A stretch of 64,000 nucleotides of DNA. Origin: Pseudogemmobacter hezensis. GTDB taxonomy: Bacteria > Pseudomonadota > Alphaproteobacteria > Rhodobacterales > Rhodobacteraceae. Every line of letters starts with the position of its first letter. Positions within the stretch are counted from its first letter, which is position 1. The notes under the pieces were generated by a model. That model searched no databases. It worked only from the letters and a program-made list of their open reading frames with translations, and had not been told where the DNA came from. Shown in pieces: positions 25,614 to 54,056 of this stretch. The stretch lies in contig NZ_JABJXT010000003.1 in NCBI RefSeq assembly GCF_013155295.1, positions 248,001-312,000 on the forward strand, written 5' to 3'. The translations under genes and the position numbers were made by a program.

Positions 25614-25725
25614 AGGGCAAGCGCTGCCATATTGCGCGCCATCAAGTCGTTTCACCGCGCATTACCGTCGCATACGGAATTTCTCTTGCGCTTGGCCGGG
25701 CGGCTTTGCTAGTCAGAAAGGGCAG

Positions 25726-25924
25726 GATCGGGAGAATCCGGGCAGCCCTTTGCGGGGTGGGTCCGGTGCCGAAGGAGCAACCGCCCCGGTAAACTCTCAG
25801 GCGCAAGGGACCGTTTCTGCACAGGAAGACTCTGGAGAGTGGCGCATGAGGCGCCCGCCGAAGGGATAACGATCTCAGGCGCCCATAAGCCTTTTGACAA
25901 GGTGACGGGCAAGGACAGAGGGGG
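25726..25924 (+). ncRNA. Tandem glycine riboswitch
   Basis: Both aptamers are recognisable. The first runs from ATCGGGAGA through GCCGAAGGAGCAA and AACTCTCAGGCGCAAGGGACC to ACTCTGGAGAG. The second has CGCCGAAGGGATAAC, ATCTCAGGCG and a closing GGACAGAGGGG. The order and spacing match the cooperative two-aptamer glycine riboswitch. It lies directly upstream of gcvT-gcvH-gcvP, so glycine should turn on its own cleavage system. A GC-rich hairpin (25922-25958) immediately after it is the likely expression platform. Confidence 0.96.
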
Positions 25925-50926: not shown

Positions 50927-51051
50927 ATCCACCCCGCCAGAGGCTGCGGCGGGGCGTCGCAGGCTGCGGCCATCATGCGTGGGAGCATTGGTTGCGAAAG
51001 GGGGAAACCTGTCATAATGTCAGAAAAATTCCCAGGAGAAGCCAGGCCCCG

Positions 51052-52248
51052 ATGCAGACCGAATTTGAGCTTCTTCTGGCCCAGGCAGGCTGGACCGTGC
51101 CCGAGGCCGCCCGGCGTCTGGGCTATTCCGAGGGTCATATCTACCGCTGGAAACGGGGCGAGGAACCCCCGCGCGAGGCCGTGCTGACCGTTTTACGGGC
51201 GGCAGCCCAGCCTGCACCCGAAGCAGATGGCTCATTCACATTCATCGACCTTTTCGCGGGCATCGGCGGCCTTCGTCGCGCGATGGAGGCGGCGGGCGGG
51301 CGCTGCGTCTTCACCTCGGAATGGGACCGTTTCGCGCAAAAGACCTATCACGCGAATTATCCCGACAACCGCCCCATCGCAGGCGATATCCGCGAGGTTG
51401 ATGCCGCTGATGTGCCCGCCCATGACGTGCTGGTCGCGGGCTTTCCCTGCCAGCCGTTTTCCATCGCGGGCGTGTCGAAAAAGAACGCGCTTGGCCGGGC
51501 GCATGGCTTTGCCGATGAAACCCAGGGCACGTTGTTTTTTGACGTGGCGCGGCTGATAAAACACCATCGTCCGGCGGCGTTTTTGTTGGAAAATGTCAAA
51601 AACCTGCAAAGCCATGACAAGGGCAATACCTTCGCCGTGATCCGCCGGGTGCTGAGCGAAGAGCTGGGCTATCAGCTGTTCACAAAGGTGATTGATGCGG
51701 GCCATTTCGTGCCCCAGCACCGCGAGCGGATCGTGATGGTCGGCTTTCGCCAGCCCGTCGATTTTGCCTGGGAGCAGCTGGATCTGCCTGCCTATGGCAG
51801 CCGCCGCCTGGGCGCGATCCTGCATCCCGGCAACGGGACTGAGGCGCCCGAGGGCCATTTCACCACCGGCCCCGATGCTGTTGTCAGTGAGAAATACACG
51901 CTGACAGACAAGCTGTGGCGCTATCTGCAGGATTACGCGGCCAAGCACCGGGCCAAGGGCAACGGCTTCGGCTTTGGCCTGGTGGGCGAGGGCGATATCG
52001 CCCGCACCCTCTCGGCCAGGTATTACAAGGACGGGTCAGAGATCCTGATCCGCCAGCAGCCGGGCAAAAACCCGCGCCGCCTGACGCCCCGCGAATGCGC
52101 GCGGCTGATGGGCTATGATGACAGTTTCCGCATTCCGGTCTCTGACACCCAGGCCTATCGCCAGTTCGGAAACTCGGTCGCGGTGCCGGTCTTTGCCGAG
52201 GTGGCGCGGCAGATGCGCCGCCACATCCTTGCGCTGAAAGATGGCTGA
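51052..52248 (+). CDS. Dcm-type DNA (cytosine-5) methyltransferase
   Basis: A 398-residue C5 methylase. An N-terminal helix-turn-helix ([20 protein letters not shown]) as in E. coli Dcm precedes motif [11 protein letters not shown], motif [13 protein letters not shown] (catalytic Cys), ENVKNL, QHRERI and FGNSVAVPV. It is coupled to a vsr gene by an 8-base overlap, as in the dcm-vsr pair. The recognition site is not known from sequence; CCWGG is a reasonable guess. No restriction gene is adjacent. Confidence 0.92.
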
Positions 52249-52777
52249 CATCCACAGCCCTGCGGCGCGGCGGCGCAATATGCAGGCGATCAGGGCGGCG
52301 GATACAAAGCCCGAGATGACCCTGCGCAAGGGGCTGTTCGCGCTTGGGTTTCGCTATCGCCTGCAGGTCAGGGCACTGCCGGGGCGGCCCGATCTGGTCT
52401 TGCCGAAATACCGGGTGGCGATCTTCGCCAATGGCTGTTTCTGGCATCTGCATGGCTGCGATCTGTTCCGCTGGCCCGCCACCAGACAAGAGTTCTGGCG
52501 CGAGAAACTCGGCGGCAATCAGGCCCGGGATCTGCGCAATCAGGCCGCGCTGCGCGATCAGGGCTGGCGGGTGGCGGTGGTCTGGGAATGTGCGCTGAAG
52601 GGGCGCGGTCGCCTGGCCGAGGGCGAGGTGATCCGCCAGCTGGCCGCCTGGATCCTCGGCGGCGGCCAGCATTTTGAGATCGGGTCTCAGGCCAGTTTTC
52701 GGGCCAGTTTTCAGGCCAGTGCGGTTTCGGGGGATTTGACCGCATCGGCCAGCCCGTCCAGCAGTTCGACCGTCTGA
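52241..52777 (+). CDS. vsr: Very short patch repair endonuclease
   Basis: A 178-residue nicking enzyme that cuts next to T:G mismatches left by deamination of 5-methylcytosine. Family motifs are present: [46 protein letters not shown] and [11 protein letters not shown]. It overlaps the methylase by 8 bases. The last 25 or so residues (Ser/Ala-rich) have no family counterpart and the gene end overlaps the convergent aroG by 67 bases. Confidence 0.9.
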
Positions 52778-53775
52778 TCCCAGGAGATGCAGCCGTCGGT
52801 GATCGACTGGCCATAGACCAGGGGCTGACCCGGGATCACCTTTTGCGCCCCGGCGACCAGGTTGCTTTCGACCATCAGCGCCCGGATGCGGCGCTCGCCT
52901 GCGCGGATGCGGGCGGCGATATCGGCGACGACGCCGGGCTGGCGGGCGGGATCCTTGCCGCTGTTGGCATGGCTGGCGTCGATCATCAGGCCCGGATCAA
53001 TCCCGGCTTTTGCCGCCGCCGCCATGACGGCCTCGACATCTTCGGCGCTGTAATTCGGCCCTTTCGAGCCGCCCCGCAGCACGACATGGCAATCCTGGTT
53101 GCCGCTGGTGCGGGCGATTGCGGCGCGGCCATCGGCGGTGATCGCCGGGAAGCTGTGCTGGCCCCGCGCCGAAAGGATCGCATCCAGCGCCATCTGCACA
53201 GAGCCGTCGGTGCCGTTCTTGAACCCCACCGGGCAGGACAGGCCCGAGGCCAGCTGGCGATGGATCTGGCTTTCTGTGGTCCGCGCCCCGATTGCGCCCC
53301 AGGCGATCAGATCGGCGAAATACTGCGGCATGATCGGGTCGAGGAACTCGGTCGAGGCGGGCAGGCCGAGGCTGTTGATGTCCAGAAGCAGGCGGCGCGC
53401 CAGCGGCAGCCCGTCCTCGATCCGGTCCGATCCGTCAAGATGCGGGTCGTTGATCAGCCCCTTCCAGCCAACCGTGGTGCGCGGCTTTTCAAAATAGACG
53501 CGCATCACGATTTCCAGCTTGTCGGCATGGCGTTTGCGCTGTTCGGCCAGGCGGTGGGCGTAATCCATCGCCGCCTTTGGATCGTGGATCGAGCAGGGGC
53601 CGATCACCACCAGAAGCCGCTGGTCACGGCCCGCAAGGATCTCTCGGATTGCGGCGCGGCTTTGGGCGACGGTGGCAGAGACCGCCTCATCACGGGGGAT
53701 GGCGGTGGCCAGCTCGGCGGGCGAGGGCAGGGGGCGCAGTTCTTCGATGCGCAGATTGTTGGTCTCGGTGGGCAT
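52711..53775 (-). CDS. aroG: 3-deoxy-7-phosphoheptulonate synthase (DAHP synthase), E. coli class
   Basis: A 354-residue type I-alpha DAHP synthase catalysing the first step of aromatic amino acid biosynthesis from PEP and erythrose 4-phosphate. LLVVIGPCSIHDP, MRVYFEKPRTTVGWKG, GARTTESQIHR and CHVVLRGGSKGPNY are all family motifs. The ATG at 53775 has AAGGA before it and gives MPTETNNLRI, the normal N-terminus. Its 5' leader carries a complete attenuator (53819-53971). It converges on vsr. Confidence 0.95.
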   Translation of the reverse strand: MPTETNNLRIEELRPLPSPAELATAIPRDEAVSATVAQSRAAIREILAGRDQRLLVVIGPCSIHDPKAAMDYAHRLAEQRKRHADKLEIVMRVYFEKPRTTVGWKGLINDPHLDGSDRIEDGLPLARRLLLDINSLGLPASTEFLDPIMPQYFADLIAWGAIGARTTESQIHRQLASGLSCPVGFKNGTDGSVQMALDAILSARGQHSFPAITADGRAAIARTSGNQDCHVVLRGGSKGPNYSAEDVEAVMAAAAKAGIDPGLMIDASHANSGKDPARQPGVVADIAARIRAGERRIRALMVESNLVAGAQKVIPGQPLVYGQSITDGCISWDQTVELLDGLADAVKSPETALA

Positions 53776-53818: not shown

Positions 53819-53852
53819 AAAAACGGAAAGCCGCCGGTCGGACCAGCGGCTT
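53819..53852 (-). terminator. Attenuator terminator in the aroG leader
   Basis: On the minus strand, AAGCCG pairs with CGGCTT around an inner imperfect stem, followed by TCCGTTTTTC. It lies 44 bp before the aroG start. The 5' arm contains CCGCTGG, which is complementary to CCAGCGG inside the leader ORF (53906-53912), so an alternative antiterminator helix can form. Confidence 0.8.
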
Positions 53853-53887
53853 GTCGGGGTGTTTTGGTGAGTATCGCCTGTCTCGCG

Positions 53888-53971
53888 TTACACAGCCGCC
53901 CGCATCCGCTGGCATGAGCGGAAGTAATAAAACCAAACGGCGGCATAGGTGGTGGCGTGAACGTGCGACAT
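53888..53971 (-). CDS. aroG leader peptide with aromatic codon run
   Basis: A 27-codon ORF (MSHVHATTYAAVWFYYF followed by RSCQRMRAAV). Residues 13-17 are Trp-Phe-Tyr-Tyr-Phe, encoded at 53921-53935, with another Tyr at residue 9. It is followed by a terminator and then the DAHP synthase gene, the standard layout of translation-coupled attenuation. It has no Shine-Dalgarno sequence. GTGACA and TAGCTT, spaced 17 bp, put the transcript start at or next to the ATG, so the message may be leaderless, as reported for trp leader ORFs in some alphaproteobacteria. Confidence 0.82.
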   Translation of the reverse strand: MSHVHATTYAAVWFYYFRSCQRMRAAV

Positions 53972-53978
53972 GCCGAGA

Positions 53979-54007
53979 AAGCTAGAGGCGAAAAACAGCT
54001 TTGTCAC
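53979..54007 (-). promoter_or_regulatory. Candidate promoter for the aroG leader
   Basis: On the minus strand, GTGACA (54002-54007) and TAGCTT (53979-53984) are 17 bp apart. The predicted start is seven bases on, at the leader ATG (53971). Only three of six -10 positions match consensus. Confidence 0.5.
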
Positions 54008-54056
54008 GGGGAAAATGCAGCCGGATCGCAAAGTGGTGTTTGCAGCCGGCCCTGTC

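Follow-up and report, generated by a model that had tools for sequence, protein, structure and literature searches.

A predicted ribosome-mediated transcription attenuator at type I DAHP synthase genes of Alphaproteobacteria

How is the type I DAHP synthase gene on the minus strand of this 64,000-nucleotide stretch of DNA (the window) controlled? The gene, aroG (53775-52711, ATG at 53775, 354 aa; Pfam PF00793, DAHP synthase I, E 2.7e-88), belongs to the pathway of the same aromatic amino acids whose codons are clustered in a short open reading frame just upstream. We conclude that the intervening DNA is very likely a ribosome-mediated transcription attenuator, predicted from its sequence to sense the charging of aromatic tRNAs and to control aroG. 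The sequence shows the parts of the element, their conservation in relatives and the feasibility of its competing folds.

On the minus strand, a -35 box, GTGACA (54007-54002), is followed by a 17-nt spacer and a -10 box, TAGCTT (53984-53979), with 7 nt between the end of that box and the ATG of a leader ORF of 27 codons plus a stop (53971-53888). The encoded peptide, MSHVHATTYAAVWFYYFRSCQRMRAAV, is probably translated from a leaderless RNA; there is no Shine-Dalgarno-like sequence 5' of the leader ATG in the window. Its candidate sensor codons are W13, F14, Y15, Y16 and F17 (53935-53921); nowhere else in the window, in any of six frames, do five aromatic codons follow one another. When the 300 nt upstream of aroG were shuffled with dinucleotide composition preserved, a five-aromatic run in a short ORF arose in 4 of 20,000 shuffles. 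Still within the ORF, CCAGCGG (53912-53906) in region 2, CCAGCGGA (53912-53905), is complementary to CCGCTGG (53849-53843) in region 3 (53852-53843). Region 3 is at once the 5' arm of the terminator and the 3' arm of the antiterminator. It pairs with region 4 (53837-53828) to give the terminator hairpin, AAGCCGCTGG-TCCGA-CCGGCGGCTT (53852-53828), after which the DNA is T-rich up to 53819. The U tract of this intrinsic terminator, UUUCCGUUUUU (53829-53819), is interrupted, a weak point of the proposed attenuator. The gene itself has a Shine-Dalgarno-type site, AAGGA (53785-53781), 5 nt 5' of its ATG. The original prediction had located the promoter, ORF, aromatic run, terminator and aroG start correctly to the base. 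Its placing of the transcript start at a leader ATG that lacks a Shine-Dalgarno site agrees with the boxes and spacing given above, and the complementarity it proposed between the ORF and the terminator 5' arm is exact in position on direct reading.

The same prediction had named conservation in relatives as a check, which we carried out: the aromatic run, the terminator and the complementarity of regions 2 and 3 are all kept. The set began with 64 loci and was enlarged by genome searches of the family, class and phylum. Within Rhodobacteraceae, a type I aroG is found at E 1e-60 or better in 17 of 394 genomes (at E 0.001, 10 of 149 genomes have a match, one of them weak at 30%), and every one of the 17 type I aroG loci of the family combines an aromatic leader with a terminator. 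Among the Alphaproteobacteria, 14 of 385 genomes encode aroG, the window's own included; 11 of the other 13 have at least four aromatic codons within seven. One locus, L087 (leader at 1059-1194), retains two aromatic codons only, adjacent to one another (Phe-Tyr), along with its terminator, a pattern in which sensing has possibly decayed; L085, from the same genus, has a spread-out aromatic run. Locus L094 offers too little upstream sequence, and a covariance model (below) finds a leader on another contig of the same genome (L131). This leader lies at the contig end (50-187, minus strand) and aroG starts near the end of the other contig, consistent with an assembly break between the two. At the level of the phylum, 171 of 299 genomes gave a match, and the best 30 loci were taken.

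Both the protein and its upstream sequence could be read at 115 AroG loci; 75 of these carry the leader and 40 do not. The leader-bearing loci, which include Devosia and some Burkholderiales, occupy one side of a single branch of the AroG tree (SH-aLRT 91), such that the leader label requires one change among the 115 proteins. The AroG proteins labeled as having no aromatic leader are at most 59.7% identical to that of the window, as are 9 of the 75 with one (L069, L071-L073, L082-L084, L095 and L097). Three labels were set by judgment against the 4-of-7 rule of our script: L087 was counted as a leader, and L030, which passes without a terminator, and L037, which passes from a TTG start, were counted as having none. 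Short upstream sequence excluded L056, L058, L060, L062 and L094, and L064 and L074 were unmatched at the script's threshold. On the tree, the family copies fall into two groups; since a single clade is not rejected (p 0.21), we do not claim two horizontal transfers into the family. The 75 leaders encode 21-28 residues, and their peptides vary between clades outside the aromatic run. Because Phe and Tyr codons occur in all 75 and Trp codons in 64, the element is best called a Phe/Tyr sensor to which Trp is usually added.

The promoter is kept in position relative to the leader. In 52 of 64 alphaproteobacterial leader loci, a -10-like hexamer beginning with TA starts at -13 or -12 from the A of the ATG, and 59 of 64 have a -35-like box, matching TTGACA at 5 or 6 of its 6 positions, at -36 or -35. 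Of 46 non-redundant loci, 44 have a C just before the leader ATG; a Shine-Dalgarno core at -17 to -4 appears once among the 64. At five of these loci (L072, L104, L105, L001 and L002), the upstream of two ATGs was chosen with the spacing known, and these five are not independent evidence. Given the near-fixed distance from -10 box to ATG and the near absence of Shine-Dalgarno cores, the window leader, too, is probably leaderless, as had been proposed. Leaders of the Burkholderiales, inspected by eye, lack this spacing, and we therefore claim leaderlessness for the alphaproteobacterial loci only.

Folding calculations bear on whether the leader could switch. The terminator hairpin (-18.7 kcal/mol, z -5.1) is matched in stability by none of 200 shuffles; the stability of the whole leader is only moderately above that of its shuffles (z -2.0; 8 of 200 equally stable). 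The minimum free energy fold of the 153-nt leader holds the terminator together with a hairpin overlooked in the original prediction, in which region 1, UCCGCU (53922-53917), starting inside the last Phe codon of the aromatic run, pairs with AGCGGA (53910-53905) of region 2. With this 1:2 hairpin added to the 2:3 and 3:4 pairings, the leader has the four regions of a classical attenuator, 1:2 and 3:4 opposing 2:3. RNA that ends at the terminator 5' arm and begins at 53926 or 53914 adopts the antiterminator fold. For window RNA ended at region 3, the pairing probability between region 3 and the ORF is 0.01 with the whole leader and 0.78 when the RNA begins 9 nt beyond the first base of the final aromatic codon, a masked-state value that one ORF-part shuffle in 40 attains. 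Averaged over 74 leaders, this probability is 0.25 for the whole leader, 0.70 for the masked state and 0.49 for masked shuffles. Masking raises it in 72 of the 74 (L071 and L085 drop), and in only 17 of 74 is the masked-state value matched by at most 2 of 40 ORF-part shuffles. Full RNAs of all 74 form the terminator with a probability of at least 0.5 and likewise pair region 2 upstream at 0.5 or more. (L016 is absent from these counts; its terminator hairpin, evident on inspection and contained in the covariance-model match, escaped the rule by which the script recognizes terminators.) In these models both states are available and the terminator prevails by default.

What equilibrium folding does not do in the window is single out the aromatic codons, as the values with a ribosome at codon 1 (antiterminator probability 0.74-0.76) and at W13 (0.78, as at the other aromatic codons) are alike. 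Removal of the first 9-12 nt of the RNA already yields 0.74-0.78. The value is high at codon 1 because the 0.01 of the free leader depends on pairing of the extreme 5' end. In the whole-leader fold, 53970-53965 pairs with 53877-53872 (minus strand), past the leader stop, and keeps region 2 off region 3; a free 5' end may in this way contribute to the off state that the leader adopts by default. Elsewhere, equilibrium values rise from 0.06 at codon 1 to 0.71 at F11-Y13 (L021) and from 0.43 to 0.71 at the aromatic run (L006), and the mean over 74 leaders goes from 0.51 with the ribosome at codon 1 to 0.66 at Trp, 0.65 at Phe and 0.67 at Tyr codons. The leader stop lies a median of 19 nt past region 2, so a ribosome there would be only marginally placed to block that region. 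That stalling at aromatic codons decides between the folds is thus a prediction drawn from conservation of the codons and from the established mechanism. The original suggestion that stalling could favor antitermination stands insofar as the alternative fold is possible and conserved; its dependence on the aromatic codons is not required by equilibrium folding of the window. A geometry-based expectation that limitation for Tyr or Phe would outweigh that for Trp in the window copy was dropped, because a ribosome at W13 gives an equal antiterminator probability.

Sequence changes among relatives were followed in two alignments, one of the eight nearest loci (A1) and one of 35 diverse leaders (A4). 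In A1, L066 differs by T to C in regions 1 and 3 and by A to G in region 2, and both the 1:2 and 2:3 helices are preserved; L003 has those changes of regions 1 and 2 and keeps 2:3 through a G-U pair. Across A4, 87.3% of the cells of the 2:3 helix are paired, whereas shuffles give 82.6% and slid versions no more than 60.2%; cells changed on both sides number 12, compared with 4.5 in shuffles. The corresponding values for the 3:4 helix (35 sequences) are 90.0% versus 82.9% and at most 58.2%, with 30 cells changed on both sides versus 9.7. For both helices, the paired cells, both-side changes and covariation score are reached by none of 500 shuffles and exceed those of all slid versions. The number of pairs with both-side changes does not go beyond shuffles (182 of 500 as high for 2:3, 233 of 500 for 3:4), nor does the number of pair types (420 and 341 of 500, respectively), and the outer two 2:3 pairs are missing in 13 of 34 and 17 of 35 sequences. 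The 1:2 helix, followed in the eight relatives of A1 only, is paired in 48 of 48 cells (13 of 500 shuffles as high), with one pair changed on both sides. As the shuffles ignore relatedness, all of these covariation figures are supports rather than probabilities.

A covariance model built from A4 (R1) was then used as a measure of specificity. Among 289 alphaproteobacterial genomes it gives eight matches of 69-99 bits, seven immediately 5' of aroG and one at the end of a contig in a genome that has aroG, and the next best match scores 33 bits. The other six aroG genomes of the class survey, apparently outside those 289, score 73-103 bits beside aroG. Most matched loci are part of the model's own alignment, and the telling point is the absence of matches elsewhere; with nothing between 33 and 69 bits in the 289 genomes, we rejected the idea that other genes there are under the same element. 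Five weak R1 loci (L134, L135, L136, L139 and L145) are, by eye, terminators without an aromatic leader. Outside its building set, R1 finds nine of nine loci at 43-62 bits, comprising seven of seven from the Burkholderiales group (three placed there by the tree) and two of two Paracoccus plasmid leaders; none of six negatives (L024, L028, L120, L121, L125 and L148) is matched. In the laboratory strain Paracoccus denitrificans PD1222, the leader, read by eye, is MSHRMPCTISFYWFRCPQRSRV and precedes PDEN_RS23850; the PLSDB table, itself incomplete, gives no feature at that place. Caballeronia sp. SL2Y3 (61% identity) has no such leader. Rfam 15, which includes amino acid leaders and the T-box, has no match at gathering score over the leader, in the window or in 10 relatives, the best weak match being 17.4 bits against a cutoff of 90, and we accordingly rule out a riboswitch, T-box or other Rfam element. 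Five leader peptides searched against Pfam and against NCBIfam returned no families in either, peptides this short being hard to detect.

The attenuators of the Escherichia coli trp and phe genes are four-region switches with stall codons, an antiterminator and a terminator; each responds to one amino acid, precedes other genes and is translated from a Shine-Dalgarno site. By the mechanism we propose here, the first transcribed base would be the A of the leader ATG, with a ribosome loading on the leaderless 5' end, as the conserved spacing suggests. With Phe, Tyr and Trp plentiful, the ribosome would reach the stop codon or leave, and region 2 would be covered or paired with region 1; with region 2 occupied, the 3:4 terminator would form and an RNA of about 150 nt would be released. 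With aromatic tRNAs uncharged, the ribosome would stall in WFYYF and cover region 1, the 2:3 pairing would form ahead of the synthesis of region 4, and transcription would continue into aroG. If this model is right, Phe and Tyr would be sensed in all copies and Trp in most. Promoter use, translation of the leader, stalling, the order of folding and the response are what we infer. Judged by its sequence, the window element is very probably an attenuator of the classical type whose leader is leaderless.

Several other readings of the locus deserve weight. Upstream of the leader on the same strand lies an ABC transporter gene (PF00005, 54716-54057) that looks like one for capsule export, and the hairpin downstream of it, with its imperfect U tract, might do no more than terminate transcription or mark where the upstream transcript ends, the leader ORF being a chance or unrelated coding stretch. 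This reading is extremely improbable and we reject it, given the rarity of such a run in shuffles and its conservation in 75 loci, with different upstream genes in the nearest relatives, and a conserved promoter sits between the upstream gene and the leader. In those relatives, L001 and L002, vsr and dcm likewise lie downstream, and the capsule genes are missing within 1.5 kb upstream; their promoter, leader and terminator are kept despite the different upstream neighbors, from which we take the element to belong to aroG. The reading frame is, moreover, open back to a TTG at 54031, from which a 47-codon ORF on an upstream transcript could be translated, in which case the leader would not be leaderless. 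Such an extension would cross the conserved promoter, whose -10-to-ATG spacing is kept in 52 of 64 loci, and the frame has no in-frame start upstream of the leader ATG in nine other loci (L002 and the Devosia-group L007-L010, L012, L014, L015 and L018); the TTG start is thus very improbable, and we reject it as well. A leader acting through translation, by coupling, reinitiation or an occluded aroG start, rather than through transcription termination, finds some backing in the hypothesis of reinitiation at leader ORFs as a general effect, as put forward in PMC4833913. We consider it improbable: aroG has its own AAGGA more than 100 nt from the leader stop, and in relatives a conserved 3:4 hairpin followed by a T run leaves the aroG start uncovered.

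The terminated leader RNA of about 150 nt, or its peptide, might act in trans besides or instead of cis attenuation. The architecture is shared with rnTrpL/peTrpL of Sinorhizobium meliloti, a leaderless, terminated leader mRNA of an alphaproteobacterium, and the S. meliloti trp leader is reported to act in trans. Against this, the peptides differ between clades outside the aromatic run, and strong R1 matches in the 289 genomes lie at aroG only; we regard action in trans as unlikely, and by analogy with S. meliloti it is speculation. A broader proposal would join aroG and a leaderless multi-aromatic attenuator into one self-regulating unit, an uncatalogued RNA family of single origin, passed on whole into genomes in which a type II enzyme was already present and with a leader acting in trans. 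The unit and its single origin fit the one-change tree, the co-occurrence with type II enzymes and the confinement of model matches to aroG; taken as a whole, the proposal is unlikely.

The preferred reading, cis attenuation of aroG, has relatives among described systems. That DAHP synthase genes may be attenuated has been proposed before, and the type of mechanism is well understood. A reported precedent is aroR-aroF of Corynebacterium glutamicum (PMC11802643, describing Neshat et al. 2014), and the original prediction, which called attenuation at a type I DAHP synthase an inference, was slightly too modest in view of that case. As in the window, a leader peptide with Phe-Tyr-Phe precedes a DAHP synthase gene in C. 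glutamicum and stalling raises transcription; that system differs in belonging to an actinobacterium and is said to respond to limitation for Phe, not Tyr, and no Trp codon is named in the description used here (PMC11802643), which also names the E. coli trp and phe attenuators. Our comparison of the two leaders is by that description. In S. meliloti trpL/rnTrpL (PMC7298713, PMC10117765), another alphaproteobacterial attenuator, the transcript likewise starts at the leader ATG; it differs in serving trpE(G) with a 14-aa Trp leader, compared with a DAHP synthase, about 25 aa and two to three aromatic residues here. Two predicted leaders are described in PMC8632094. One, uORFC-13-1 before aroF in Acholeplasma, is a proposed Phe-codon leader with terminator at a DAHP synthase gene, although with a ribosome binding site, in another bacterial group, with another structure and as a prediction only; the other, uORFC-8-2 before cysS in Rhodobacterales, is a predicted ribosome-mediated attenuator in the same order, although with Cys codons and at a cysteinyl-tRNA synthetase gene. 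Attenuation that senses charged tRNA has also been proposed at the DAHP synthase gene aroF of E. coli and Shewanella (PMC2659441, citing Camakaris 1980), in that case for Tyr only, in gammaproteobacteria and as a proposal. Our literature search, beyond whose reach most subscription papers lay, returned no account of an aroG attenuator in Alphaproteobacteria, and the word aroG does not occur in the main text of PMC2965389, PMC1273637 or PMC1262725.

The leaders appear to form a conserved family, uncatalogued so far, that precedes the genes of a single group of type I DAHP synthases. A type II DAHP synthase is present in 18 of 18 family genomes checked, nine with and nine without type I aroG. 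The attenuated type I enzyme is an additional isozyme, and its separate control is predicted from the sequence. We considered the same element at the type II gene of the window genome and rejected it, as the upstream DNA there has no aromatic leader and no model match. The attenuator would explain how many Alphaproteobacteria and some Burkholderiales control a second DAHP synthase that occurs sporadically. As a conserved RNA element unmatched in Rfam 15 it merits an Rfam entry, and annotators gain a family of short leader genes. With codons for two or three aromatic amino acids and a leaderless start, it lends itself to studying how several amino acids are weighed by a single attenuator and how attenuation operates on leaderless leaders.

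The surroundings of the locus add some minor observations. The ABC ATPase gene and its neighbors (57098-54057, minus strand) resemble, by eye, capsule polysaccharide export genes. On the other side, 50992-52777 (plus strand) encodes a C5 cytosine methylase (PF00145) overlapped by a Vsr mismatch endonuclease (PF03852); vsr converges on the end of aroG with a 67-base overlap, and the methylase/vsr pair is kept beside aroG in L001 and L002. Farther off in the window, 25719-25823 (plus strand) matches the glycine riboswitch RF00504 at 57.2 bits, and the ORFs after it read as a glycine-cleavage T protein and then an H-protein-like product, an ordinary arrangement. The 4 kb locus L100, from a genome outside the class, also contains a tandem glycine riboswitch (408-601) in addition to its attenuated aroG.
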